From: CAVSKL01 sp963728475 [NCBI: Candidatus Eiseniibacteriota bacterium] | GTDB lineage: Bacteria > Eisenbacteria > RBG-16-71-46 > JABDJR01 | DNA length: 64,000 bases | Direction: 5' to 3' | Assembly: GCA_963728475.1 (NCBI GenBank) | Contig: CAVSKL010000002.1 | Coordinates: forward strand, 372,001 to 436,000 | Shown: positions 50,030 through 64,000 of the stretch, one piece after another | Layout: the number at the start of each line of letters is the position of its first letter | How positions within the stretch are numbered: position 1 is the first letter of the stretch | Program-made: the position numbers and the translations under genes | The notes under the pieces: model-generated | The model's database searches: none | What the model saw: the letters and a program-made list of their open reading frames with translations, nothing else | Told to the model about the DNA's origin: nothing

Positions 50030-51460
50030 ATGAGAATTCCGGGAGATCTCCATCCGGGAGTGGGCCGGACACTGGTCGCGGCGGCGGCGGTGGGAATCCT
50101 GCTGGGCGCGGGACGCGCCACCGCGGTGCCGCCCCCTCCGGGTGCGCTGGACGTGGACGAGGCGGTGCGGATCGCGCTCCGCCAGAACTACGACTACCGC
50201 CAGGCGGAGACGGGGGTGGCCTCGGCTTCGGGTTCCCGCCTGGACGCGGCGGCGGGGCTTCTGCCCGGTGCCAGCGCCTCCTACAGCTACTCCAAGAACA
50301 ACAGCACCCGCACGCTCAAGGACATCGGCACGGTGTACGACTCCAGGGGGAACGTGCTGGAGCGAGGGAACATCTCCCTCGACTCCCGCTCGCACAGCAC
50401 CGGCTGGAGCCTGGGAGTCGACGAGAGCCTGAGCCTGCCGCTCTGGCTCCGCTACCGGAGCGCGGGGAGCCAGCTGGAAGCGGCCCGGAAGGGTCGGGAG
50501 GCTGGCGCCCAGACCCTGGCCTTCGACGTGCGCCAGCAGTTCTATCTGGTGCTCCGGGCCCAGGATCTCCTCACCGTGCAGCAGGAAGCGCTCAAGCTGG
50601 CGCAGGACCAGCTTCAGCGGACCCAGAGCATGTTCGAGCTCGGTTCGGTGGCCAAGGTGGACGTGCTCAAGTCCCGGGTCCAACTCGCCGACGCGCAACT
50701 CTCACTCATCCAGCAGCAGAACCAGGTGGACATCGAAGAGTCGCGGCTGGCCACCCTGCTGGGGTTCCCGTCCGACACCCCGCTTCAGCTGGCGGGCCGG
50801 CTCGATGTCCAGCCCACCCTGGTGGACAGCGCCGCCGCGGCCGGCGACGCCCTGAACCGCCCCGACGTGGAGCAGGCCGGCTACCAGCTCTCGAGCGCGT
50901 CCAGCCTCTACAACGCCGCGGTCTACTCCCGCCTTCCCAGCCTGTTCGCCAGCTTCAGCTGGAGCAATTCAAACGGGGCCTCCGAGTCCGACCAGGCCAG
51001 CCCGTTCCTGCTCGCGGACTCGACCCAGGTGCTGGCCAAGTTCCCGGTGGACTCCCGGAGCGGCTCCGACGGCTGGTCGTTCCGGGTGGGGGCCCAGGTC
51101 TCGCTCGACGCCTTCCTCAACCTGGGGCAACAGAAGCGGGCGAGGGCGGCGAAGAACTCCGCCCGGTATCAGCTCGAGAGCCTGAAGCTGGCCGCCCAGC
51201 AGGACCTGGGGGAGGCCATCCTCAACTATCGGGCCTCGATCCAGGCGATCGAGACCGCCAAGAGCGGGGTGGTGTCGGCGGAGGAGGATCTGCGGCTTTC
51301 CCAGGAACGCTACGACCAGGGGTTGGGCACGGTGCTGGACGTCCTCCAGTCCCAGGTCAACCTGACCCAGGCCCGCAACAGCCTGGTCAACGCCCAGACC
51401 GGACTCTTGATCTCGGAGGCGGCGCTGGACAAGGCGCGCGGAGCGGCGCTGCCTCAATAG
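50030..51460 (+). CDS. TolC-family outer-membrane efflux channel protein
   Basis: 476 residues with a signal peptide (T-L-V-A-A-A-A-V-G-I-L-L ending A-T-A) and the two-repeat outer-membrane efflux protein pattern: L-D-V-D-E-A-V-R-I-A-L near the start, long alpha-hairpin regions, and V-L-D-V-L-Q-S-Q-V-N-L-T-Q-A near the end. It should trimerise into an outer-membrane channel and periplasmic tunnel. The three following genes encode the adaptor and the ABC transporter, so this is a MacAB-TolC-type system. Confidence 0.9.
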   Translation: MRIPGDLHPGVGRTLVAAAAVGILLGAGRATAVPPPPGALDVDEAVRIALRQNYDYRQAETGVASASGSRLDAAAGLLPGASASYSYSKNNSTRTLKDIGTVYDSRGNVLERGNISLDSRSHSTGWSLGVDESLSLPLWLRYRSAGSQLEAARKGREAGAQTLAFDVRQQFYLVLRAQDLLTVQQEALKLAQDQLQRTQSMFELGSVAKVDVLKSRVQLADAQLSLIQQQNQVDIEESRLATLLGFPSDTPLQLAGRLDVQPTLVDSAAAAGDALNRPDVEQAGYQLSSASSLYNAAVYSRLPSLFASFSWSNSNGASESDQASPFLLADSTQVLAKFPVDSRSGSDGWSFRVGAQVSLDAFLNLGQQKRARAAKNSARYQLESLKLAAQQDLGEAILNYRASIQAIETAKSGVVSAEEDLRLSQERYDQGLGTVLDVLQSQVNLTQARNSLVNAQTGLLISEAALDKARGAALPQ

Positions 51461-51506
51461 GGCCGGAGGCGGGAAACCCGCCCCGGATCCCCAGGGGAGA
51501 ACGAAC

Positions 51507-52808
51507 GTGAAACGGTGGCTCTTGATCGGCGGCGCGGTCGTGCTCCTGGCCGTCATCCTCATCGCCAACCTCAAACGCTCCAACGTGCCGACGGAGAAGG
51601 CCCGGATCTCCAAGGTGGAGCGCGGGACGATCACCGCCCGGGTGAGCGCCCCCGGCAAGGTGGACGCGGTCGCCTCGGTGGATCTGAGCGCGGAGGTGCC
51701 GGGCCGGGTGGAGAAGCTCTTCGTGGCCGAGGGCGACTCGGTGAAGAAGGACGACCTCCTGCTCCGGCTCGACGACGACCAGTACCGGAGCCGGGTGGCC
51801 CAGGCCGAGGCCTCGATCGCGAGCGCCAGGGCCAACCTGGTCCTCAGCCAGGCCCGCCTCGCCAAGCTCCAGTCCGACCTGGACCGGGAGGAGGCCATGA
51901 GCAAGAGCGGCCTCACCTCGGCCCAGGCGCTGGAACAGGCCCATACCGACGTCAAGGTGCAGACCGCCGACGTGGAGGCGCGCCGCCAGGAGGTGGCCCA
52001 GATGCAGGCCGCGGTCCAGGACGCGCGCGACAACCTGCGCAAGACCGAGTACCGGGCGCCGGTGTCCGGGATCGTCTCCCGGCTCAACGTGGAGGAGGGG
52101 GAGATCGTGGTGGTCGGGACCATGAACAACCCCGGCACGGTGGTGCTCTCCATCTCCGACCTCAGCGAGATGGAGGTCGATGCCGACGTGGACGAGACCG
52201 ACGTGGTCCACGTGGCCGCCGGCCAGCCCGCCAAGATCAGCGTGGACGCGGTTCCCGACACCACCTTCCCCGGCACCGTGGCCATGGTGGGAAGCTCGGG
52301 ACGGTCCAGCGGGGGAGGCACCGCCAACGAAGCCATCAACTTCGAGGTCAAGGTGCGGTTCGACCAACCGGACCCCCGCCTCAAGCCGGGCATGACCGCG
52401 GACGTGGACATCGAGACCCAGACCCACCGGGACGTGATCGCGGTGCCGATCCAATCCCTGGTCGCCCGGAGCCGCGGCGTGCTCGACCGTGACCGGAAGG
52501 CGGCGGAGAAGCGCGCAGGTAAGGCCACCGGCGGGCGGGGGACCGCCGCCGCCGACACCCTCGACCAGGAGGCCCGGGACAAGCGGGACAAGGAGATCGT
52601 GGAAGGGGTGTACAAGGTGGTGGACGGGGTCGCGACCTTCGTTCCGGTCACCAGCGGGATCGCCGACGACACCCGGATCGAGGTCTCGGGGGATCTCCAG
52701 GAGGGGGCCGAGGTGGTCAGCGGCCCCTACCGGGTGCTTCGCGACCTGAAGGAGGGGACCAGGATCAAGGAGACCAAGGGCGCCGTGGACGAGAAGGAAA
52801 AGGACTAG
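51507..52808 (+). CDS. Periplasmic adaptor (HlyD/MacA-type membrane fusion protein)
   Basis: 433 residues from GTG at 51507. An N-terminal membrane anchor ([12 protein letters not shown]) is followed by the biotinyl-lipoyl half-motif [11 protein letters not shown], a coiled-coil hairpin ([13 protein letters not shown]) and a beta-barrel region with Y-R-A-P-V-S-G-I-V. An Ala/Gly/Arg-rich insert of ~50 residues (R-A-G-K-A-T-G-G-R) precedes the last domain. It should join TolC to the MacB-type permeases encoded downstream. Confidence 0.9.
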
Positions 52809-52884
52809 TGCCGCGCCGAACCGCCGCCCCGCCGCGGCCGGCTCCCGCGGGGAAAATCCGGCCCCACCGGAACGAGCTTCGCCC

Positions 52885-53571
52885 GTGTTGATCGACATCG
52901 ACGACCTCACCAAGGTCTATCACATGGGCGAGATCGAAGTGCGCGCGCTGGATCACATGGACCTGGGGATCGCCGCCGGCGAGTACGTGGCGATCATGGG
53001 GGCTTCGGGCAGCGGCAAGTCCACCCTCATGAACATCCTGGGCTGCCTCGACACCCCCAGCGGCGGGACCTACCGGCTGGAGGGGGAGCTGGTCTCGAGC
53101 CTGGACGACGACCAGCTCGCCGCCATCCGCAACCGGCGGATCGGTTTCGTGTTCCAGACCTTCAACCTGCTGGCCCGGTCCGACGCCTTCCACAACGTGG
53201 AGCTCCCCCTCATCTACGCCGGGATTCCGGGCCCGGAACGCCGGGAACGGGTGGCCGCCGCCCTGGAGATGGTGGGGCTGGCCGACCGCGCCCGCCACCG
53301 TCCCAACGAGCTCTCGGGAGGACAGCGGCAGCGGGTGGCGATCGCGCGGGCGCTCGTCAACAAGCCCTCGCTGATCCTCGCCGACGAGCCCACCGGGAAT
53401 CTCGACACCCGGACCAGCTACGAGATCATGGCCGCTTTCGACACCATCCACGCCGAGGGGAACACGGTCATCCTGGTCACCCATGAAGAGGACATCGCGC
53501 TGCACGCCCGGCGGCGGGTCCGGCTTCGCGACGGCAAGATCGAGAGCGACACCGTCGCGGAAGGCGCCTGA
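52885..53571 (+). CDS. ABC transporter ATPase, MacB/LolD type
   Basis: 228 residues from GTG at 52885. Walker [11 protein letters not shown]-loop F-Q-T-F-N-L, signature L-S-G-G-Q-R-Q-R, Walker [14 protein letters not shown]-loop V-T-H-E. The N-L-D-T-R-T motif is typical of the MacB/LolD/FtsE (type VII) group. In canonical MacB the ATPase is fused to the permease. Here it is separate and drives one or both of the two following permeases. The permease start overlaps its stop. Confidence 0.92.
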
Positions 53572-54791
53572 TGCGGCTCCTGTGGGAGAGCTTCCGCCTC
53601 GGCGCCGCCGCCCTCTGGTCCCACCGGCTCCGCACCCTGCTCACCCTGCTCGGCCACATCATGGGGGTGATCACGGTGATCACCCTGGTGAGCCTGATCC
53701 AGGGGCTGAACCACTACGTCTCCGACAAGATCCTCATCCAGGGAGCGAACCTCTTCCAGGCCGACAAGATCGGCCTTGCCTTCAACGAAGAGGACTTCCT
53801 CGACCGGCTGAAGCGCCCCGACCTGGACATGCGCCAGTACGAGCAGGTGAAGGAGCGGGCGGAGACGCTCAAGGCCTCGGGGGCGGTTCTCCAGACCAGC
53901 GCCCGGGTGAAGTACCGGAACCGCAAGCTCAACGGGGTGGGAGTGGTGGGCATCACCCCCGACTCGCCCTTCTTCGATCCCTATCCCCTGGTGGAGGGAC
54001 GGGGGCTGCGGGATCCGGACCTGCGCTCCCGCCGGAACGTGGCCATCCTCGGCCACGACGTGGCCCATGAGCTCTTCCCCGCGGGGAGCCCGGTGGGTCA
54101 GGACATCCGGGTGGGGAGCCGCCGGTACCAGGTGATCGGGGTGTTCGGGGCGCGGGGGCGGATCTTCGGGCAGAGCACCGACAACTTCGTGGCCGTACCC
54201 ATCACCGAGCTCATGAGCTGGTTCCGGGACAAGAGCTTCTTCACCATCCTGGCCCAGCCCAAGGCGGGGGTGCCGGTGGAGGAGTCCGAGGCCGAGGTGC
54301 GCTGGATCCTGCACTCGGTGCGGGGGCTCCGGCCCCAGGACAAGGACGACTTCGAGGTCTACTCCTCCGACGCCCTCATGGATCTCTACCGCAACCTCAC
54401 CGGGGGGATCTTCGCGGTGCTGGTGGGGGTGGGGAGCATCTCGCTGGTGGTGGGCGGGATCGTGATCATGAACATCATGCTGGTGTCGGTGACCGAGCGC
54501 ACCCGCGAGATCGGGATCCGCAAGTCGGTGGGGGCCCGCCGGCGCGACGTGCTGAACCAGTTCCTGATGGAGTCCCTGGTCATCACCCTGGCCGGAGGTT
54601 CGGTGGGGATCACCGTCGGGTTCACCCTGGGGGTGGTGGTGTCCGCGGCCACCCACTTCCCGGTGCGCATCACCCCCGAAGCCACCGCCCTCGGCTTCGG
54701 CCTGTCGGCGGCGGTGGGCATCTTCTTCGGCATCTATCCCGCCATGCGCGCCTCCCGGCTCGACCCGGTGGTGGCGCTCAGGTTCGAGTAG
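53571..54791 (+). CDS. MacB-type ABC permease 1
   Basis: 406 residues from an ATG overlapping the ATPase stop by one base. The first helix lies in R-L-R-T-L-L-T-L-L-G-H-I-M-G-V, followed by a ~220-residue periplasmic MacB domain, then three C-terminal helices of the FtsX family containing M-N-I-M-L-V-S-V-T-E-R-T-R-E-I-G-I-R-K. The coupling-helix segment E-R-T-R-E-I-G is fully conserved. Type VII ABC proteins act as mechanotransmission machines for export through TolC, or for lipoprotein or division signalling. Confidence 0.9.
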   Translation: MRLLWESFRLGAAALWSHRLRTLLTLLGHIMGVITVITLVSLIQGLNHYVSDKILIQGANLFQADKIGLAFNEEDFLDRLKRPDLDMRQYEQVKERAETLKASGAVLQTSARVKYRNRKLNGVGVVGITPDSPFFDPYPLVEGRGLRDPDLRSRRNVAILGHDVAHELFPAGSPVGQDIRVGSRRYQVIGVFGARGRIFGQSTDNFVAVPITELMSWFRDKSFFTILAQPKAGVPVEESEAEVRWILHSVRGLRPQDKDDFEVYSSDALMDLYRNLTGGIFAVLVGVGSISLVVGGIVIMNIMLVSVTERTREIGIRKSVGARRRDVLNQFLMESLVITLAGGSVGITVGFTLGVVVSAATHFPVRITPEATALGFGLSAAVGIFFGIYPAMRASRLDPVVALRFE

Positions 54792-54851
54792 GACGGGCGC
54801 CATGACCGCGACCCGGTCCGCCGCGTTCCGCTCCCGCCCCGGGGAGGCCCG

Positions 54852-56114
54852 ATGAGGCTGCCCGCCTTCACCCGCGTCTTCCGGCGGACCGGCCAGGAGG
54901 CCGAGATCGTCCGCCTCGCCCTCGGAAGCCTGATCGCCCACAAGATGCGGGGCGGGCTCACCGTGCTCGGCATCGTGATCGGCATCACCTCGGTGGTGGG
55001 CATGGTGAGCCTGGTGGAAGGGCTCAACCGCTCCATGAAGAACCAGCTCGCCACCCTCGGCTCCGACGTCATCCGGGTGCGCCGCTTCGATCCCGGGGTG
55101 TTCGTGGGGGACATTCCCGATTCGCTCCGCAAGCGCAAGGACTTCGACGAGAGCGACGCCCAGGGGATCCGCGAAACCGCTCCCGCGGTGCTGGCGGTGA
55201 GCGGCCTCTACCAGACCACGCAACGCCTGCACTTCGGCGGGGAGCAGAGCCGCCTCACCGACGTCACCGGCATCGATGCCTACTACATGCTGGTGTTCAA
55301 CCGGGCGCTGGAGGACGGCCGCCCCTTCACCGAGGCGGAGGTCCGGGGCGGCGCCCGGGTGGCCCTGATCGGTTCCGAGATCCAGGACCAGCTCTTCGCC
55401 GGGGTGGATCCGGTGGGGCAGGCGATCCAGGTGGGGAACCAGAAGTTCGTGGTCACCGGGGTGCTGGCCAAGCGGGGAAAGTTCGTGGGGCAGAGCCTCG
55501 ACAACGACGTGCTCATCCCCAAGGAGGCGCTCCGCCGATACTTCGGCTCTCCCCGGATGCCGCTCCTCATTGCCGCCCGCCCCATCCGGCCGGAACTCCT
55601 TCCCGCGGCCCTCGACCAGATGACCGAGTCGCTCCGGCGCACCCGGGGACTCCGCCCCCGGGACCAGAACGACTTCGCGCTGGTCACCCAGGAGAACCTG
55701 CTCTCGCTCTACAACCAGATCACCGGCGCCTTCTTCGTGGTGGTGGTGGCGATCGCGTCGGTGGCGCTCCTGGTGGGCGGGATCGGAGTCATGAACATCA
55801 TGCTGGTCTCGGTGACCGAGCGCACCCGGGAGATCGGGGTGCGGAAGGCGCTGGGAGCCACCCGCCGTCAGATCCTGGTGCAGTTCCTGGCCGAAGCGGT
55901 GATGCTCACCGCCACCGGGGGGGTGATCGGGATTGTGCTGGGGTTCTCCATCGGAAAGCTGGTCGATCTCCTCACCCCGCTCCCGTCCTTCGTGCCCATC
56001 TGGACCTACGTGGCCGCGATCACCGTCTCCATGGGGGTGGGGCTCTTCTTCGGGATCTGGCCCGCGGTGCGCGCCGCCCGCCTGGACCCGGTGGAAGCGC
56101 TGCGCTACGAGTGA
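54852..56114 (+). CDS. MacB-type ABC permease 2
   Basis: 420 residues from ATG at 54852. Same architecture as the preceding gene: one N-terminal helix (L-T-V-L-G-I-V-I-G-I-T), a periplasmic domain, three C-terminal helices with M-N-I-M-L-V-S-V-T-E-R-T-R-E-I-G-V-R-K. The two permeases are clearly paralogous but well diverged, so they may form a heterodimer served by the single ATPase. Its last 10 bases overlap the end of the convergent lanthipeptide exporter gene, so the two operons meet without any spacer. Confidence 0.9.
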   Translation: MRLPAFTRVFRRTGQEAEIVRLALGSLIAHKMRGGLTVLGIVIGITSVVGMVSLVEGLNRSMKNQLATLGSDVIRVRRFDPGVFVGDIPDSLRKRKDFDESDAQGIRETAPAVLAVSGLYQTTQRLHFGGEQSRLTDVTGIDAYYMLVFNRALEDGRPFTEAEVRGGARVALIGSEIQDQLFAGVDPVGQAIQVGNQKFVVTGVLAKRGKFVGQSLDNDVLIPKEALRRYFGSPRMPLLIAARPIRPELLPAALDQMTESLRRTRGLRPRDQNDFALVTQENLLSLYNQITGAFFVVVVAIASVALLVGGIGVMNIMLVSVTERTREIGVRKALGATRRQILVQFLAEAVMLTATGGVIGIVLGFSIGKLVDLLTPLPSFVPIWTYVAAITVSMGVGLFFGIWPAVRAARLDPVEALRYE

Positions 56115-58285
56115 TTCCCCGCCGGGGTTTCGGACGGGGACGCCGGCGCCGGGGGGCGCGGCCGCCGGCGCGCCCACATGCCCGCGTAGACTCCGCCCCG
56201 GGCCAGAAGCTCGCGATGGGTTCCCCGCTCCACGATCCGCCCCTCCTCCAGGACCAGCACCAGGTCCGCCTCCCGGGCGGCGTCGAGGCGATGGGTGGCG
56301 AGGATCCGGGTGCCGGGGAGCCGGCGGAGCCGGCGGTGGATCCGGCGCTCGGTGATCCGGTCCACCGCGCTGGTGGCCTCGTCCAGGAGCAGCACCGCGG
56401 GGCGGCCGGCCACCGCCCGGGCCAGGCAGAGGCGCTGCCGCTGGCCGCCGCTCAGGTTCAGCCCTCCCGGCCCCACCGGGGTGGCGAGCCCCATCGGGAG
56501 CCGCTTCACGTCGGCGAGGGCGCAGGCGGCGGCGAGTGAGCGCAGGACCCGGACCGTGGGCAGGTCCCGGCCCAGGGTCACGCTCTCCAGCACCGTCCCT
56601 CCGGGGAGCACGTTCTCCTGGAACACCGCGCCGATCCGGGAGCGGAGCGCATCCGGGTCGTAGTCCGCGGCGGGGCGGCCGTCCACCCGGTAACTCCCCG
56701 CGGCGGGCGGGTAGAGGGTGGCCAGGAGCTTGAGGAGGGTGGACTTTCCCGAGCCGGTCCGTCCCACCACCACCACCGTCGATCCGGGGGGCACCTCGAG
56801 GTCGATGCCGTGCAGGATGTCCGGCCCTTCCGGAGCGAACCGGAACGAGACGCCGCGGAGGCTGAGCGCTCCGGCCAGGCCGGCGGCGGAGGCGGGCGCG
56901 GAGGGAGGCGCGGTGGACTCGGAGGGAGCCCGGAGGATCCCGTAGGCACGGCGAAGCTCTTCCCCGGTCCCTCCCAGGCGGTGGAGGGCCTCGGCCAGCC
57001 GCGGCACCGGGGCCAGGGCCACGCCGGCCAGGATGTAGAGGCCGGCCATCGTCCCCGCGGTGGCGTTCCCGACGGCGGCCGGCGCGATTCCCGCGGCGAG
57101 GACGGCCAGGGGGAGCGCGGCGGCGGTCCCCCCCGCCAGCGCCTCCCACAGCGCGCCCGCTTCCCGGCGCCGCCGCCCGGCCCCGGTCCGGTCGGCGAGG
57201 CGCTCCGACCAGGCGGGAAGGACCCGCTCGATCCCCGCCATCTTGACGTCGGCGATGCCGTCCAGGGTGCCGGCGGCGAAGGTGTAGAGCCGGGCGTGGG
57301 CGAGGGCGTCACGCACCCGGGCGTCGCTCGTCCGGCGCCGGGCGAACGCGGTGAGCGCTCCCTGGAGGAGGACCGCGCCCAGGACGGGAAGGGCGAAGCC
57401 GGGGCGGTAAACTGCCAGCGCGAAGAGCGCGGAGACCAGGAAGGCGCCGTCCAGGAACGCGGCGGCGGCGGTGTTGGGAAGCTCGTCCAGGACCAGGTCC
57501 GCGCCCTGGAGCCGGAGCAGCAGCTCCTCCGAGGGGCGGCCGTTGAAGTAGGCGAGGGGAAGGCGGAGGAGCCGGCGGAAGGCGCGGTCGAGCCAGGCCC
57601 GGCTCATCCGTTCACCCGCCGCGGCCAGGATCCGGCCGCGCGCCCACGCGGTCAGGGTCTGCGCCGCGGCCAGGACCGCCGCCGCCGCGCCCAACAGGAC
57701 GGCGAGGGAGAGGCTTCCGGCCGGGAGCGCCCGGTCCACCCCCCATCCCACCACCAGGGGGAGGGCGAGGGCGGAGGCGAGGATCCCCAGGGTCAGCGCC
57801 GCCGCTCCCGCCGCCTCGCCGGGGCGGAGCGGGAAGGCGCCGGCCAGAACCGCGGGCCCGGCCCGCTCCCGGCGGGGGCGGAACCCCGGGCCCTTGCCGA
57901 GCAGCACCAGCACCCCCGAGAACTGCGCGAGGAAGCTCTCCAGGGCCAGGGTGGTCCGACCGCGAAGGGGGTCCACCACCCGCACCGAACGCCCCGGCCG
58001 CACCTCTTCCACCACCACGAAGTGCCCTTCGCGGTAGTGCGCGATGGCGGGGAAGGGCATCCCGGGAAGGAGCGCCGGGTCCTCGATCCGGAACCCCCGC
58101 GCGTCCAGACCGAGGCTCCGCGCCACCCGCACCAGGTCCAGCCCGGTGGTGCCGTCGCGGCCGGTGCCCAGGCGGTCGCGGAGATCGTCGACCGTGCTCC
58201 GGTGCCCGTGGAACCGGAGCACCATGGCCAGGCAGGCGGGCCCGCAGTCCCCGGCGAGCGAGGTGGCGAGCCAGGGGACGCGCAC
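56105..58285 (-). CDS. lanT: Lanthipeptide exporter with C39 leader peptidase domain (LanT/PCAT type)
   Basis: 726 residues. GTG at 58285 starts two bases after the lanM stop and just before the peptidase domain. C39 domain: Cys14 in G-D-C-G-P-A-C-L, His88 in G-H-F-V-V, Asp105 in V-D-P-L-R-G. The position six residues before the Cys, normally the oxyanion-hole Gln, appears to be Thr8. A six-helix ABC membrane domain follows, then the ATPase: Walker A G-R-T-G-S-G-K-S-T, signature L-S-G-G-Q-R-Q-R, Walker B V-L-L-L-D-E-A-T-S. It should export the modified peptide and cut its leader on the way out. Confidence 0.9.
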   Translation of the reverse strand: MRVPWLATSLAGDCGPACLAMVLRFHGHRSTVDDLRDRLGTGRDGTTGLDLVRVARSLGLDARGFRIEDPALLPGMPFPAIAHYREGHFVVVEEVRPGRSVRVVDPLRGRTTLALESFLAQFSGVLVLLGKGPGFRPRRERAGPAVLAGAFPLRPGEAAGAAALTLGILASALALPLVVGWGVDRALPAGSLSLAVLLGAAAAVLAAAQTLTAWARGRILAAAGERMSRAWLDRAFRRLLRLPLAYFNGRPSEELLLRLQGADLVLDELPNTAAAAFLDGAFLVSALFALAVYRPGFALPVLGAVLLQGALTAFARRRTSDARVRDALAHARLYTFAAGTLDGIADVKMAGIERVLPAWSERLADRTGAGRRRREAGALWEALAGGTAAALPLAVLAAGIAPAAVGNATAGTMAGLYILAGVALAPVPRLAEALHRLGGTGEELRRAYGILRAPSESTAPPSAPASAAGLAGALSLRGVSFRFAPEGPDILHGIDLEVPPGSTVVVVGRTGSGKSTLLKLLATLYPPAAGSYRVDGRPAADYDPDALRSRIGAVFQENVLPGGTVLESVTLGRDLPTVRVLRSLAAACALADVKRLPMGLATPVGPGGLNLSGGQRQRLCLARAVAGRPAVLLLDEATSAVDRITERRIHRRLRRLPGTRILATHRLDAAREADLVLVLEEGRIVERGTHRELLARGGVYAGMWARRRPRPPAPASPSETPAGNHS

Positions 58286-58287
58286 GG

Positions 58288-61200
58288 TCAGCGCGGCTCC
58301 GGGGGTTCGAGCACCAGCACCGAGGGGACCCGGCCGGGGGCGGCCAGCCGGAGGAGGCCGAGGCCGATCCCGGCGCGGCCGTTGAGGAGCCCGGCCGAAT
58401 CCACGCCCCCTCGCGTTCCCGGAAGGGGGCCGTCGCGGTCGAGGCTCGCGACCACCCGGCGGGTCCGGTCCCGGACCGCCGCGGCCAGGTCCGGGTTGCC
58501 GGTGAACCGCGCGGCCGCGTCGAGGAAATCGAGGTTGCCGAGGTCGCCGTGGCAGAGACAGTGGTTGCGGCCGAAGCCCCGTTCGACGGTGAGGCGGACG
58601 GCCCGCTCCAGCTCCTCGCGGAGCGCCCCGTCGCCGAGGCTCCGGAGCGCTCCCAGCCGGGAGTAGCCGATCCCGGGCGCCCCGTAGCACCAGGCCATCG
58701 CCACCGCCCGCTCGATCGGCGCGTCCGCGCCGGCGGGCGCGTCCAGCCAGCGCTCGAGTTCCGGCCAGAAAAGCCGCCGCTCCAGCGCCAGCGCCCGCCG
58801 GGCCGCCTCCAGATACCGCGGCTCGTCCAGGGCCCGGCCGAGTTCGCACAGCGCCCACCCGATGCCGGCGTTCCCGTGGGAGAAGCCGATCTGGGGGGCG
58901 TCCCCGCCGATGCGGGTGACCCAGGCGAGCCCGTCCCCGGTCTCGCGGGCGGAGGCGAGGAGGCTCTCCCCGCACGCGCGCGCCGCCGGGAGGAGATCGG
59001 GGTCGCCGGTCGCGCGATGGAGGGCCAGGATCGCCGCCCCCGCGCCCGCCGCACCTCCGACCACGTCGCGGTCCTCGTCGAGGGCGAGGAGCGCGGGGAT
59101 CCGCCGGGCGATCCGCGCCGCCCGGTCCAGGGCCCCGGGGTCGGCGCCCAGGGCCCCGAGATGGGCGTCGGCGTAGAGCACGCCGCCCCATCCGTTCATG
59201 GCCCCCACCGCGGTCAGGCCGCTTCCTTCGCGCTCGAGCCGGGCCTCCAGCGCCCGCCGGCCGGCCCGCGCCAGCTCGAGGTAGCGCTCCTCTCCGGTGA
59301 CGGCCCCCAGGTAGGCCAGGAAAAGCGCGATCCCGGGGACGCCCGCGTAGAGATCCTCCACCATGGGAACCAGGGTCCAGCGCTTCTCCCGGAACTCCAC
59401 CCCCAGCCAGGTGGCCAGGTCCCCGTCGCGGACCGCCTGGGTCGCGAACCAGTCGCCGATCCGCCGGGCCCGGGCGACCAGCTCCCCGGCGATCCCCTCC
59501 CCGGGAAGAAGATCGGCGTCGGCCGGCGGCGCATAGGGGGGCCGGTCGGGGTCGGCCCGGTTGAGGGCCAGGGTGCCCAGGGCCAGCCGCACCAGGTGCC
59601 GCTGGCGGTCGAGCTCGGCCTCGTCGCCGAGAGCGTCCAGGCGGCGCCGGACCGCGTCGAGGGCCGGCTCCTCGAAGAAGCCGGCGAGCTGCTCCCCGTC
59701 CGAGGTGACGAGCCCGGTCCCCGCGGGGACGCAGGTGAAGGAGGGGACGTCGCCGCGCCAGAGGTCGCGGTGCTCGGCGGGAATCGCGCGCCTCAGGACC
59801 GGAAGGTCCTCCACCCCCACCGCCAGCCGGTCGAAGTGGCGGTCGCGGTCGCGCGCGTCGCGGAGCAGATCGGGGTGGGTGCTCTCCGAGAGGAGGAGCG
59901 CGTAGGCGCGGGTGGCGCGGAGCACCGCCCGTACCGGGGTCCCGGCGAAGCGGGCCAGCGGGCCCCCGGGCGCCAGCAGCGCCTCCCGCCGCTCCTCCAG
60001 CCGCCGCCACATCGCGGTGAATCCCGCCGCCACCGCGTCCACGTGGTCGGCGGCGTCCGCCTCCCGGCCGTCCAGCACCGGACGGTTGGCGCCGCCGGGC
60101 ATGGGAAGCCGGGCCCGCGCGGCGTGCATGGCATCGGTGCCCGCCTCCTCCCACCGGAGCACCGGGTCGGGGGTGAGCTGCCCCTCCACCGAGGCGAACC
60201 CGCTCACGTCGACCCCCTCGAAGCCGTCCCCCTCGCCCACCCGGAAAGGGAGGAGGCCGACCCGGAGCACCGAGCGGTCCACCGCCTCCCGGGTGAGCCG
60301 CAGGTCCGGGCTCGCCACCGGCGGGCGCACCGGACGGGGATGGAACAGCGTCTCCAGGTCCACCGGCACCGGCTCCTCGCCGGCGGCAATGAGGTTCTCG
60401 AAGTGCAGGTCGGTAGCCTCGAGGATGTGGAGGAGGGCGAGGAGCTGCCCCAGCCTCCGGTGGTGCCGGTCCACCCCCGCCGCGTCCCGGCAGGGGGCGG
60501 CGGCCACGAACTCGGACCAGCCGTGGGTGCCGCGGTCGAGCACCGCCAGGGTGCGGTGGGAAAGCAGCTCCGGTTCGGGAGCGCCGCCCCCCTCCGGCGA
60601 AAGGAACTGCAGGAGTTCCTGGAAGCGCGCGTCGACCGCCATCGAACGCGGCTTGTAGACCACTCGCGCCCCCGAATCGAAACCGAGGAGATGCACCGAC
60701 CGCCCGCCGCGATGGAGGTCGCCGGCCCCCCCTTCGAGCGCATTCAGGAGGCCGGGGTCGCGCCCGCCCAGGACCTCCCGGACCACCGCGTCCCGGTCCG
60801 AGGCCCACCGCGCCGCGGTCTCGGTGAACGCCCGCTCCGCGCGGCGCAGGCGTTCCGCCACCAGCCGGGCCAGCACCGGGTACTCCTCGAGGAGCGCCGC
60901 CACCGCGGCGGGGTCGCGGAGCCGGCCGGCGAAGCTCCGGAAGCGCTCCTCGCCGGTGGCGCCGGAAAGCCGGCCCTCGAGCCGGGCCACGTGAAGCTCC
61001 AGGACCAGCGTGCGCTCCAGGATCCCCAGCACCCGGAAGGCGGCGGCCCGGCGAAAACCGGCGCCCAGCGCCTCCGGATCGAGGCGCCCGGGGCCGGCGA
61101 GGCCGTCGAGCGACGCGCGGACCCGGGCCGCGGCCCGCGCCACCAGCGGCTCCGCGGGAGCGAGGAGCGGGTGCTCCGGGGCCTCGGGCGATTGCGGGGA

Positions 61201-61338
61201 CGGGGAGCGGTCGCTCCACGCCCGCCACCACCCCGGCTCGGAGGGGCCCGCGGCCGGAGGATCTCCGCCGGGGGCGGCGCGTTCGCCGGAGTTGAGCGCG
61301 GCGAGCCAGGGAGCGGTGCCGGGAACGAAGGTGGACAT
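58288..61338 (-). CDS. lanM: Class II lanthionine synthetase
   Basis: 1016 residues, ATG at 61338 with GGAG upstream. The N-terminal ~600 residues form the LanM dehydratase: a lipid-kinase-like core with Lys229 in V-V-Y-K-P-R, D310-x-H312-x-E314-N315 and D327-x-E329. It phosphorylates and eliminates Ser/Thr to dehydro-amino acids. The C-terminal LanC-like cyclase has zinc ligands Cys884 (W-C-Y-G-A-P-G), Cys929 and His930 (L-C-H-G-D-L-G-N), where Cys thiols are added to make (methyl)lanthionine rings. One synthetase probably serves both precursors encoded upstream. Confidence 0.95.
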   Translation of the reverse strand: MSTFVPGTAPWLAALNSGERAAPGGDPPAAGPSEPGWWRAWSDRSPSPQSPEAPEHPLLAPAEPLVARAAARVRASLDGLAGPGRLDPEALGAGFRRAAAFRVLGILERTLVLELHVARLEGRLSGATGEERFRSFAGRLRDPAAVAALLEEYPVLARLVAERLRRAERAFTETAARWASDRDAVVREVLGGRDPGLLNALEGGAGDLHRGGRSVHLLGFDSGARVVYKPRSMAVDARFQELLQFLSPEGGGAPEPELLSHRTLAVLDRGTHGWSEFVAAAPCRDAAGVDRHHRRLGQLLALLHILEATDLHFENLIAAGEEPVPVDLETLFHPRPVRPPVASPDLRLTREAVDRSVLRVGLLPFRVGEGDGFEGVDVSGFASVEGQLTPDPVLRWEEAGTDAMHAARARLPMPGGANRPVLDGREADAADHVDAVAAGFTAMWRRLEERREALLAPGGPLARFAGTPVRAVLRATRAYALLLSESTHPDLLRDARDRDRHFDRLAVGVEDLPVLRRAIPAEHRDLWRGDVPSFTCVPAGTGLVTSDGEQLAGFFEEPALDAVRRRLDALGDEAELDRQRHLVRLALGTLALNRADPDRPPYAPPADADLLPGEGIAGELVARARRIGDWFATQAVRDGDLATWLGVEFREKRWTLVPMVEDLYAGVPGIALFLAYLGAVTGEERYLELARAGRRALEARLEREGSGLTAVGAMNGWGGVLYADAHLGALGADPGALDRAARIARRIPALLALDEDRDVVGGAAGAGAAILALHRATGDPDLLPAARACGESLLASARETGDGLAWVTRIGGDAPQIGFSHGNAGIGWALCELGRALDEPRYLEAARRALALERRLFWPELERWLDAPAGADAPIERAVAMAWCYGAPGIGYSRLGALRSLGDGALREELERAVRLTVERGFGRNHCLCHGDLGNLDFLDAAARFTGNPDLAAAVRDRTRRVVASLDRDGPLPGTRGGVDSAGLLNGRAGIGLGLLRLAAPGRVPSVLVLEPPEPR

Positions 61339-61448
61339 GGGAGGCTCCGGATCGTCGGCGGGGGTGGCCGCGCGCCCGGGGGGGCGCGGGCCGGAAGACG
61401 GGCGACGGAACCGGTGGGTCCCGCCGCCCGGTTACGCGCGAAACGCGC
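61339..61448 (-). terminator. Attenuator-like hairpins between the precursor and synthetase genes
   Basis: Directly after the precursor stop, GCGCG/CGCGC with loop AAA (61436-61448) forms a short hairpin. Further on CCGCGC/GCGCGG flanks a G-rich loop (about 61369-61390). Partial terminators here are usual in lanthipeptide operons and would give much more precursor than enzyme mRNA. Confidence 0.4.
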
Positions 61449-61670
61449 CTACGGACAGCAGGCGGTCCAGCCGCCGAACGAGCGCAGGGTGCAGAACCAC
61501 GCCGTGGTCATGAGCCGCGAGGCGGCGAGACCCGAAGCGTTCCTGAGCTCGTCGTCGGTGAGCTCGACCGCTCCCGCGGGATGGGTGGGAAGCCCGGCGG
61601 CCTCCTCCGCGCTCAGCGAGGCGCGGTACGCGGGATCCTTCCAGGCGCGAACAATGTCCTGGCCGGACAT
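61449..61670 (-). CDS. lanA2: Class II lanthipeptide precursor 2 (mersacidin/lichenicidin-like family)
   Basis: 73 residues, ATG with a strong AAGGAGG upstream. The leader V-R-A-W-K-D-P-A-Y-R-A-S-L-S, then H-P-A-G and E-L-T-D-D-E-L, is characteristic of the mersacidin/lichenicidin family. The leader ends E-L-R-N-A-S-G-L, where G-G or G-A is normal. If cut after Leu48 the core is 25 residues: Ser51, Thr55, Thr56, Thr61, Ser64, Thr69 and Cys60, Cys71, Cys72, allowing up to three rings. It shares TT, CT-x2-SF-x-GW and the CCP end with precursor 1. Confidence 0.88.
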   Translation of the reverse strand: MSGQDIVRAWKDPAYRASLSAEEAAGLPTHPAGAVELTDDELRNASGLAASRLMTTAWFCTLRSFGGWTACCP

Positions 61671-61757
61671 GGGTATCCTCCTTTCAGGGGGTGAAAGCGT
61701 TCCCCCCGCCTCCGCCCCACATCGTCCCGTGGAACGCGGATCGGACGGCGTACGGGA

Positions 61758-61976
61758 CTACGGGCAGCAGGAGCCCCAACCCCGGAAGCTGTACATGGTG
61801 CAGGCGAGGTTGGTGGTGCGGATGATGCCGGAGAGCCCGGTGGCGGCCTTGAGCTCGGTATCGGTGAGCTCGACCAGTCCCGCGGGATGCGGGGGAACGC
61901 GGGAAAGATCCTCCTCGCTCAGCGAGGCCCGGTAGGCCGGATCCTTCCACGCGCGGACGACATCCAACTCGGACAT
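61758..61976 (-). CDS. lanA1: Class II lanthipeptide precursor 1 (mersacidin/lichenicidin-like family)
   Basis: 72 residues from ATG at 61976 with TGAGGAG upstream; a longer frame from 62054 lacks a leader-like sequence. The leader matches precursor 2 (V-V-R-A-W-K-D-P-A-Y-R-A-S-L-S, H-P-A-G, E-L-T-D-T-E-L) and ends T-G-L. If cut after Leu48 the core is 24 residues: Ser49, Thr54, Thr55, Thr60, Ser63, Ser69 and Cys59, Cys70, Cys71. An 87-base spacer to precursor 2 contains a GCGTTCC/GGAACGC inverted repeat. First gene of the cluster. Confidence 0.88.
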   Translation of the reverse strand: MSELDVVRAWKDPAYRASLSEEDLSRVPPHPAGLVELTDTELKAATGLSGIIRTTNLACTMYSFRGWGSCCP

Positions 61977-62051
61977 GGGGGTACTCCTCAGGTGAGGACC
62001 TGCGCTCCCGACCCGGATCCCGGCCCGGCCCCGCCCGCGGAGCGCAACCTC

Positions 62052-62082
62052 CATCTAGCACGCGGGCGGCGGGAGCGGTCAA
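62052..62082 (-). promoter_or_regulatory. Candidate promoter of the lanthipeptide operon
   Basis: On the minus strand TTGACC (62082-62077) and a TAGATG-type -10 (62057-62052), spacer 19. Transcription would start about 70 bases upstream of the first precursor gene. The -10 is weak, so an activator may be needed. No dedicated regulator gene is adjacent. Confidence 0.35.
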
Positions 62083-62159
62083 GGCCCCACCCCCGGTCAT
62101 CGAGATTATGAATCACCCCCGGGCGCGCCGGCGGCCGCCGCGGGCCCGCTCCGCCTCGC

Positions 62160-62188
62160 TTGACAGCCGGCACCGGCGCGCATAACCT
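62160..62188 (+). promoter_or_regulatory. uvrA promoter
   Basis: TTGACA (62160-62165) and TAACCT (62183-62188), spacer 17. It is divergent from the lanthipeptide promoter ~80 bases away. Start near 62195, ~150 bases before the ATG at 62344. I see no clear LexA-type operator, and nothing coding between 62083 and 62343. Confidence 0.5.
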
Positions 62189-62343
62189 CTATCGCTTCCG
62201 GGACATGCGATCTTCTCTGGCCGGGCGGCGACGCTCTCGCGGAGCGCCCGGCGGCGGTTCTCCGGCGGCCCCCCTCGCCCTGCCGGTCCACCGCGAACCG
62301 ATCCCGTAACCGGCCTCGGGGACCCGACGTCGTCCGCTCGATC

Positions 62344-64000
62344 ATGCAAAACATTTCCATTCGCGGCGCCCGCGAACACAACCTCAAGAACGTCTCCCTG
62401 GAGATCCCCCGCGACAAGCTGGTGGTGATCACCGGGGTCAGCGGCTCCGGCAAGTCCAGCCTGGCCTTCGATACCATCTACGCCGAGGGGCAGCGGCGCT
62501 ACGTGGAGAGCCTCTCCGCCTACGCGCGGCAGTTCCTGGGACAGATGGAGAAGCCCGACGTCGACCACATCGACGGCCTCTCCCCGGCCATCTCGATCGA
62601 GCAGCGCACCGCAGCCCGCAACCCCCGCTCCACCGTGGCCACCGCCACCGAGATCTACGACTACCTCCGGCTCCTCTTCGCCCGGGTGGGCCGCCAGCAC
62701 TGCGTCGGCTGCGGCCGGCCGATCTCGCGGCAGACCGTGCAGGAGATGGCGGACCTGGTTCTGGCCGAGGCCCCGGGCCGGCGCACCCAGCTGCTGGCGC
62801 CGGTGGTGCGCGGGCGGAAAGGGGAGTACCGGGCTGAACTCCAGGAGATGAAGCGCGAGGGGTTCCTGCGGGCCCGGGTGGACGGCGAGTGGACCGAGCT
62901 CGAGACCACCCCCAAGCTCGACAAGAAACGTAAGCACACCATCGAGGTGGTGGTGGACCGGCTCCGCCCCGACCCCGCCCAGCGCCAGCGGCTCACCGAT
63001 TCGCTGGAAACCGCCCTCGGGCTTTCCGGCGGCCTGGTCACGGTGGTGGCGGAGGGGCTGGAAGAGCGGATCCTGAACGAGCACGCCACCTGCGTGGCCT
63101 GCGGGATCTCCTACCCGGACCTGGAACCGCGCATGTTCTCGTTCAACTCCCCCTACGGAGCCTGCCCCGAATGCGACGGGCTCGGCACCCGGATGGAGAT
63201 CGACCCGGAGCGGGTGGTCCCCGACCCCGGCCTCTCCATCGCCCAGGGGGCCATCGCCCCCTACGGGTCGCGGGTGGACAGCGCCTGGCTGGGGGCCAAG
63301 CTCAAGGGGCTGGCCCGGGCCTACAAGATCGACCTCGACCAACCGTGGAAGAAGCACCCCGCCCGCATCCGCAAGCTCCTCCTCTACGGGTCCAACGGCC
63401 AGGAATTCGACGTCAGCTACCGGGACTCCCGGTTCGCGATCAAGTACAAGCAGGAGTGGCGCGGAGTGATCCCCAACCTCATGCGCCGCTACCGCGACTC
63501 GGCCAGCGACAAGGTGCGCGACCACATCCAGCGCTACATGGGCATGACCGCGTGCCAGGCCTGCAGGGGGACCCGGTTGAAGCCGGAATCGCTGGCGGTC
63601 CGGTTGCACGGAGCGAACATCGCCGAGGTCTCGGCGCTGGCGGTCAAGCACGCGGTCCAGTGGGTGGACGGGCTCGAGCTCACCGAACGCGAGCGCCGGA
63701 TCGGCACCCAGGTCCTCAAGGAGATCCGCCAGCGCCTGCAGTTCATGGCCGACGTGGGCCTGGAGTACCTCACCCTCGATCGCAACGCCAGCACTCTCTC
63801 CGGGGGCGAGGCCCAGCGCATCCGGCTCGCCACCCAGGTGGGGTCGCGGCTCATGGGGGTGCTCTACGTCCTCGACGAGCCCTCGATCGGGCTGCACCAT
63901 CGCGACAACCAGCGGCTGCTGCGCACCCTCCTCGCCATGCGCGACCTGGGGAACACGGTGCTGGTGGTGGAGCACGATCTCGACACCATGCGGGCGGCGG
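62344..64000 (+). CDS. uvrA: Excinuclease ABC subunit A, N-terminal part (3' end outside window)
   Basis: 552 codons are visible from ATG at 62344 and the frame is open to the window edge. Walker [10 protein letters not shown] lies near residue 31, then [20 protein letters not shown] (the UvrA signature), two zinc C-x-x-C pairs (C-V-G-C and C-V-A-C, then C-P-E-C), and the ABC signature L-S-G-G-E-A-Q-R-I with L-D-E-P-S-I-G-L-H. UvrA recognises DNA damage and loads UvrB in nucleotide-excision repair. The second ATPase module lies mostly outside the window. Confidence 0.95.

Follow-up and report, generated by a model that had tools for sequence, protein, structure and literature searches.

A predicted class II lanthipeptide operon with two paralogous precursors of an apparently undescribed core type

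Gene content of the locus

Four genes on the minus strand of the window (the whole 64,000-nucleotide stretch that was analyzed) lie in the transcription order PB, PA, LanM, LanT. Judged from sequence, two paralogous precursors, a LanM synthetase and a peptidase-exporter here make up a genuine class II lanthipeptide operon that looks complete. PB (72 aa; 61758..61976, minus) and PA (73 aa; 61449..61670, minus) are open reading frames whose whole products match TIGR03898, the mersacidin/lichenicidin-type leader model, at 65.0 bits (E-value 4.4e-18) and 67.1 bits (9.4e-19), both above the curated cut-off of 23.5 bits. The first-pass annotation had placed two precursors with such a leader here, and both are borne out. 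A purine-rich site that resembles a ribosome-binding site precedes each ATG on the minus strand; read from the sequence, the likely sites are GAGGAG for PB (61984..61989) and AGGAGG for PA (61677..61682). The gaps of 87 bases between PB and PA and 110 bases between PA and LanM, together with a probable GTG start of LanT at 58285, a few bases past the LanM stop, fit what is expected of an operon. A scan of both strands of 61300-62400 for sigma-70-type promoters found none.

LanM (1016 aa; 58288..61338, minus) carries DUF4135 and LANC_like domains and matches TIGR03897 at 826.5 bits (cut-off 304). By sequence it is related to two solved proteins, LicM2 (6st5, E-value 1e-102) and CylM (5dzt). The residues that align with their phosphotransfer site are present (D207, H209, K229, D310, H312, N315 and D327), as are the zinc-site residues C884, C929 and H930, with the zinc motif in the CHG form; we take the roles of all these residues to be those of their counterparts in CylM. 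The dehydratase and LanC-like domains thus occur together in one protein with catalytic and zinc residues in place, as in a class II cluster. LanT (56105..58285, minus) is a C39-peptidase ABC exporter in which the peptidase domain (Peptidase_C39), with Cys16, His90 and Asp107 (numbering from 58291), is followed by membrane and ATPase domains (ABC_membrane, ABC_tran). Going by these enzyme families, LanM would bind the nitrile-hydratase-like leader, phosphorylate and then eliminate Ser and Thr of the core, and add Cys thiols to give (methyl)lanthionine rings; LanT would remove the leader during export. A short antibacterial peptide for use against competitors is the probable product.

The flanking genes run the other way. 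On one side uvrA, recognized by its UvrA domains, starts at 62344 on the plus strand. On the other, a plus-strand efflux operon (50030..56114) encodes a TolC-type outer membrane efflux protein, a HlyD-type adaptor, an ABC ATPase and two MacB/FtsX permeases, and meets LanT tail to tail with a 10-base overlap. It has a possible role in export or self-protection and a putative link to the cluster, and HlyD together with LanT is reported for proteobacterial and cyanobacterial clusters in PMC10027976. No MacB/TolC-like operon was seen beside the related cluster of genome G097 (see below), and we keep the efflux operon as a lead rather than a cluster member.

Precursors PB and PA

The two precursor proteins are 61% identical. 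Both cores fit TT-x3-CT-x2-SF-x-GW-x2-CCP, so the shared TT and CT-x2-SF-x-GW-x2-CCP described in the first pass can be read directly in IIRTTNLACTMYSFRGWGSCCP (PB, residues ~51-72, about 61761-61826) and SRLMTTAWFCTLRSFGGWTACCP (PA, residues ~51-73, about 61452-61520). The leader-core border is placed by inference in both; in PB, which has no double-glycine there, the leader would cover residues 1 to about 47 or 50. Between the paralogs the core is the variable half and the leader the conserved half: the non-synonymous difference is 0.44 in the core and 0.18 in the leader, while the synonymous difference is similar in the two (0.39 and 0.42). A family profile, itself built with PB and PA, matched these two alone in the six frames of the window and revealed no third precursor. 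The specificity of the profile, the LanM and LanT genes directly downstream and the existence elsewhere of relatives that share both gene order and core argue that PB and PA are not chance open reading frames.

The end of the leader is unusual for this leader group. A GG near the leader end is absent from all nine precursors with TT-x3-CT...CC cores (the two window precursors and the seven relatives described below) and present in 51 of the 60 other precursors that we fetched (Fisher p 9e-7, on rows that are related and not independent). In its place these nine have [ST]-G-[LV]-x-[GA], and cleavage could fall after G47 or after residue 50. As the mersacidin leader shows, the LanT site and the start of the core need not coincide (PMC9127955).

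Relatives and distribution

A TIGR03898 search of 396 Acidobacteriota genomes gave matches in 15, above the cut-off in 12. Seven distinct precursors with the TT-x3-CT...CC core and the leader come from four genomes (G097, G206, G220 and G182) of one Acidobacteriota class, i.e. from 4 of the 41 genomes of G206's class and the same 4 of all 396. In three of the four, G097, G206 and G220, precursors, LanM and LanT follow in the window's order, with identities to the window's proteins of 49-52% for LanM and 53-59% for LanT; an eight-member tree places the window LanM and these three LanMs in one clade (support 100/100). For G220, the match to LanT (L044 4304-6354) is split into two pieces in different frames with no masked bases, which indicates a frameshift or an assembly error. 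G182 has two such precursors on two contigs (L045 9212-9433 and L046 2236-2448), and no LanM match was found in its draft genome; some members may therefore be orphaned, or the genome may be incomplete.

The surroundings of the related clusters vary. Past LanT, G206 and G220 have an outer membrane efflux protein, and G220 also has a CusB/YtkA-type adaptor that looks metal-related. Near the lone G182 precursor, at a distance of ~4 kb, is an iron-type set of FTR1/FtsX genes. In G097, two L,D-transpeptidases (L042 10796-13452) sit directly upstream of three precursors and could serve cell-wall self-protection or be there by chance. In G220 (L044 10476-12334), and likewise in G206 (L043), the precursors are directly preceded by an ABC ATPase and by a protein with no Pfam match, which are a candidate immunity transporter.

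A nine-row profile of the two window precursors and the seven relatives scored those nine, which had also built it, at 117.7-135.5 bits; the best of the 60 other distinct precursors fetched reached 75.3. Outside the Acidobacteriota, the profile matched in at least 38 of 193 Myxococcota genomes (best 76.9 bits among the matches listed), at least 6 of 194 Cyanobacteria (best 69.2 among those listed) and at least 1 of 346 Actinomycetota (best 41.3 among those listed), in searches that, for each genome, scored some of the first-look candidates and so may have missed members. The fetched matches from these three phyla contained no TT-x3-CT. The exact core DNA pattern occurred in 0 of 195 Myxococcota genomes, and scanning genome contigs for LanM yielded no confirmed relative. 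A candidate relative on viral contigs (L007) proved to be a piece of a long unrelated frame.

Two further core types were noted on the way. Two Myxococcota precursors (L087 and L092, from G461 and G462) have the cores KTSCCTYSTTATACC and KTSCCTYSTAATACCP, with CT...CC(P) as in the window type; the likeness may be chance, convergence or distant kinship. Another long Cys-rich core, SRSGC-x-TKPWICT-x-NCT...CWS-x-NHTVCDC-x-YSAVAC, recurs in two Acidobacteriota genomes (L028 and L029, from G377 and G203).

The AsnS protein of the window bears on where this DNA comes from. Its near full-length matches in a search of 49 genomes were in 34 Acidobacteriota (52-63% identity) and two Myxococcota (57% and 49%). 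In a tree of 31 rows (the window and its 30 best matches) the window falls outside the class of G206 (fork 96/96), and we rejected a placement in the same class as the relatives. It sits beside G006 on a long branch, a weakly supported position (71/54). The cluster is either old or has moved between lineages.

A core sub-family

The six columns invariant in all nine cores are T54, T55, C59, T60, C70 and C71 (PB numbering), every one a Thr or Cys; since the alignment is itself anchored on TT and CC, the invariance is support rather than proof. TT-x3-C shows no change of length. The residues from C59 to CC number 8, 9 or 10 in 2, 4 and 3 members, respectively: both window cores are C-x10-CC, while the relatives have 8 or 9 in six of seven and 10 in one, so that most are 1-2 residues shorter before CC. 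CT-x2-[ST], a Ser or Thr four past the Cys, is kept in 7/9 cores, as is CCP, and many positions other than Thr and Cys vary. The relative with the most similar core, TTNLACTMYTFNRFRCCP, comes from G182. The conserved leader and the invariant Thr and Cys columns suggest that leader and ring residues are the parts retained by selection.

This picture qualifies two features stressed in the first pass. SF-x-GW is indeed in both window cores but in none of the seven relatives, and the CCP ending, also present in both, is less unusual than claimed, occurring in 5 of the 60 other fetched precursors with the leader.

PB and PA share the six Thr and Cys columns and the LanM clade with the relatives, in a definition drawn from the same nine sequences, and together the nine apparently form a small core sub-family that is so far undescribed. 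We found no description of it in the main texts of the literature searched, in which the core strings did not occur either; the acidobacterial precursors listed in the supplements of PMC10027976 may include this type. A profile search of Protein Data Bank sequences gave no characterized match; the weak matches were three nitrile hydratases and one CFAP253. On a close match to a characterized lanthipeptide core, one of the findings that would have counted against the first-pass reading, both the Protein Data Bank sequences and the literature text came up empty.

Ring pattern and lipid II motif

The class II lipid II motif is given as TxTxEC in PMC7268733 and as CTxTxD/EC in PMC10027976. The first pass had read CT-x2-S-F as the start of the mersacidin ring, C-T-L-T-S-E-C, with Phe at the Glu position. 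That register is probably wrong. A Cys six after C59, which would close such a ring, is found in 0/9 members, while T-T-x-x-x-C keeps a T-x4-C span, equal to that of TxTxEC, in 9/9; the retention of CT-x2-[ST] is the point in favor of the mersacidin register. In the T-x4-C frame the Glu-equivalent position before C59 is Ala in PB, Phe in PA and variable in the family, with Asp in one G182 member (TTAIDC). The favored and most likely topology is one N-terminal ring and two overlapping C-terminal rings: at the N terminus, T54 or T55 is predicted to form a small methyllanthionine ring with C59, and at the C terminus, C70 and C71 would have their partners among T60, S63 and S69. The predicted cores allow at most 5 (PB) and 6 (PA) dehydrations.

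T-x-[ST]-x-[ED]-C is absent from all nine members, both window cores included, and binding of lipid II through that motif is unlikely with its acidic residue missing. The same motif is present in 1 of the 60 other fetched precursors, which makes the missing Glu unremarkable for this leader group. The suggestion that these peptides differ from known lipid II binders thus holds as far as the lack of the acidic motif goes, but that lack is itself ordinary.

Interpretation

The best explanation of the locus, which we hold with good confidence, is a compact class II operon of a distinct sub-family with TT-x3-CT and a Cys-Cys pair 8-10 residues after the Cys. It resembles the mersacidin/lichenicidin type 2 lantibiotics (TIGR03898) in leader, LanM class and peptidase-exporter, and differs from them in a core without TxTxEC and a leader end without GG. 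A larger reading, in which this is a new Acidobacteriota-like scaffold with a neutral N-terminal ring, overlapping Cys-Cys rings, non-GG cleavage and a target other than the lipid II pyrophosphate, is tentative as a whole.

The alternative that survives best, itself doubtful, is a two-component lanthipeptide, formed by PB with PA or more generally by a pair of core types, and modified by one CHG-type LanM in the manner of roseocin. According to PMC10027976, roseocin has two precursors, one CHG LanM and no CTxTxD/EC; the window shares with that family an NHLP-type leader, the single CHG LanM, the two precursors and the lack of an acidic lipid II motif. The family's motifs S/TxxxxTxGCC and GS/TxxxxS/TxGCC, which end in GCC, are absent from both window cores, and these two belong to a single type, identical in spacing and motif. 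The first pass had argued from this likeness that a two-component system is less probable. The argument applies to the window pair but not to the relatives, which combine unlike types: G097, and likewise G206/G220, carry type a (TTF-x-TCTE-[YF]-TFRRFHCC) next to type b (TTC-x-CCTDT...RRCCP), and a third type is present in G097. With unlike core types side by side, a multi-peptide system is conceivable.

On a less probable reading the peptides are not antibiotics but would serve as signals, or be diversifying products of another sort, in which the ring frame is conserved and its decoration varies. The variability of many core positions besides Thr and Cys fits it, but no regulator or sensor family was found among the scanned neighbors, with uvrA and the efflux operon as flanks, and the dedicated exporter is a further point against it, though a signal would use one too.

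Least probable of the three is a lacticin 481-type scaffold minus its acidic residue, which may still bind lipid II by way of ring A together with an aromatic ring at the C terminus. The geometry of the window pair is similar (ring A as T-x4-C, Ser four past the Cys, and C-x10-CC, the spacing implied by the name of NF040664, HEC_x9_TCC, the lacticin 481 family model), and in nukacin ISK-1, of the lacticin 481 group, bulky hydrophobic ring C residues are needed for lipid II binding (PMC6156582). PB matches NF040664 with an E-value of 1.6e-4, but its 21.8 bits fall short of the cut-off, 46; the PB core alone gives 14.4 bits (E-value 0.032), five other family cores give no match, and 2/9 whole precursors match. 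We rejected membership of that family, since the score is below the cut-off and the core contributes little of it; the window cores also lack HEC and the acidic residue, and most relatives have the shorter Cys-to-CC spacing.

As a compact class II operon of its own sub-family, the locus extends the class II lanthipeptides by a small and well-defined core family whose phylum has been little studied. Its nine natural cores and four LanMs are a ready test set for how LanM sets ring patterns, and the same set lends itself to the question of how a C39 peptidase acts where no double-glycine is present. Should the product prove active, it may act on a target other than that of the usual lipid II motif.
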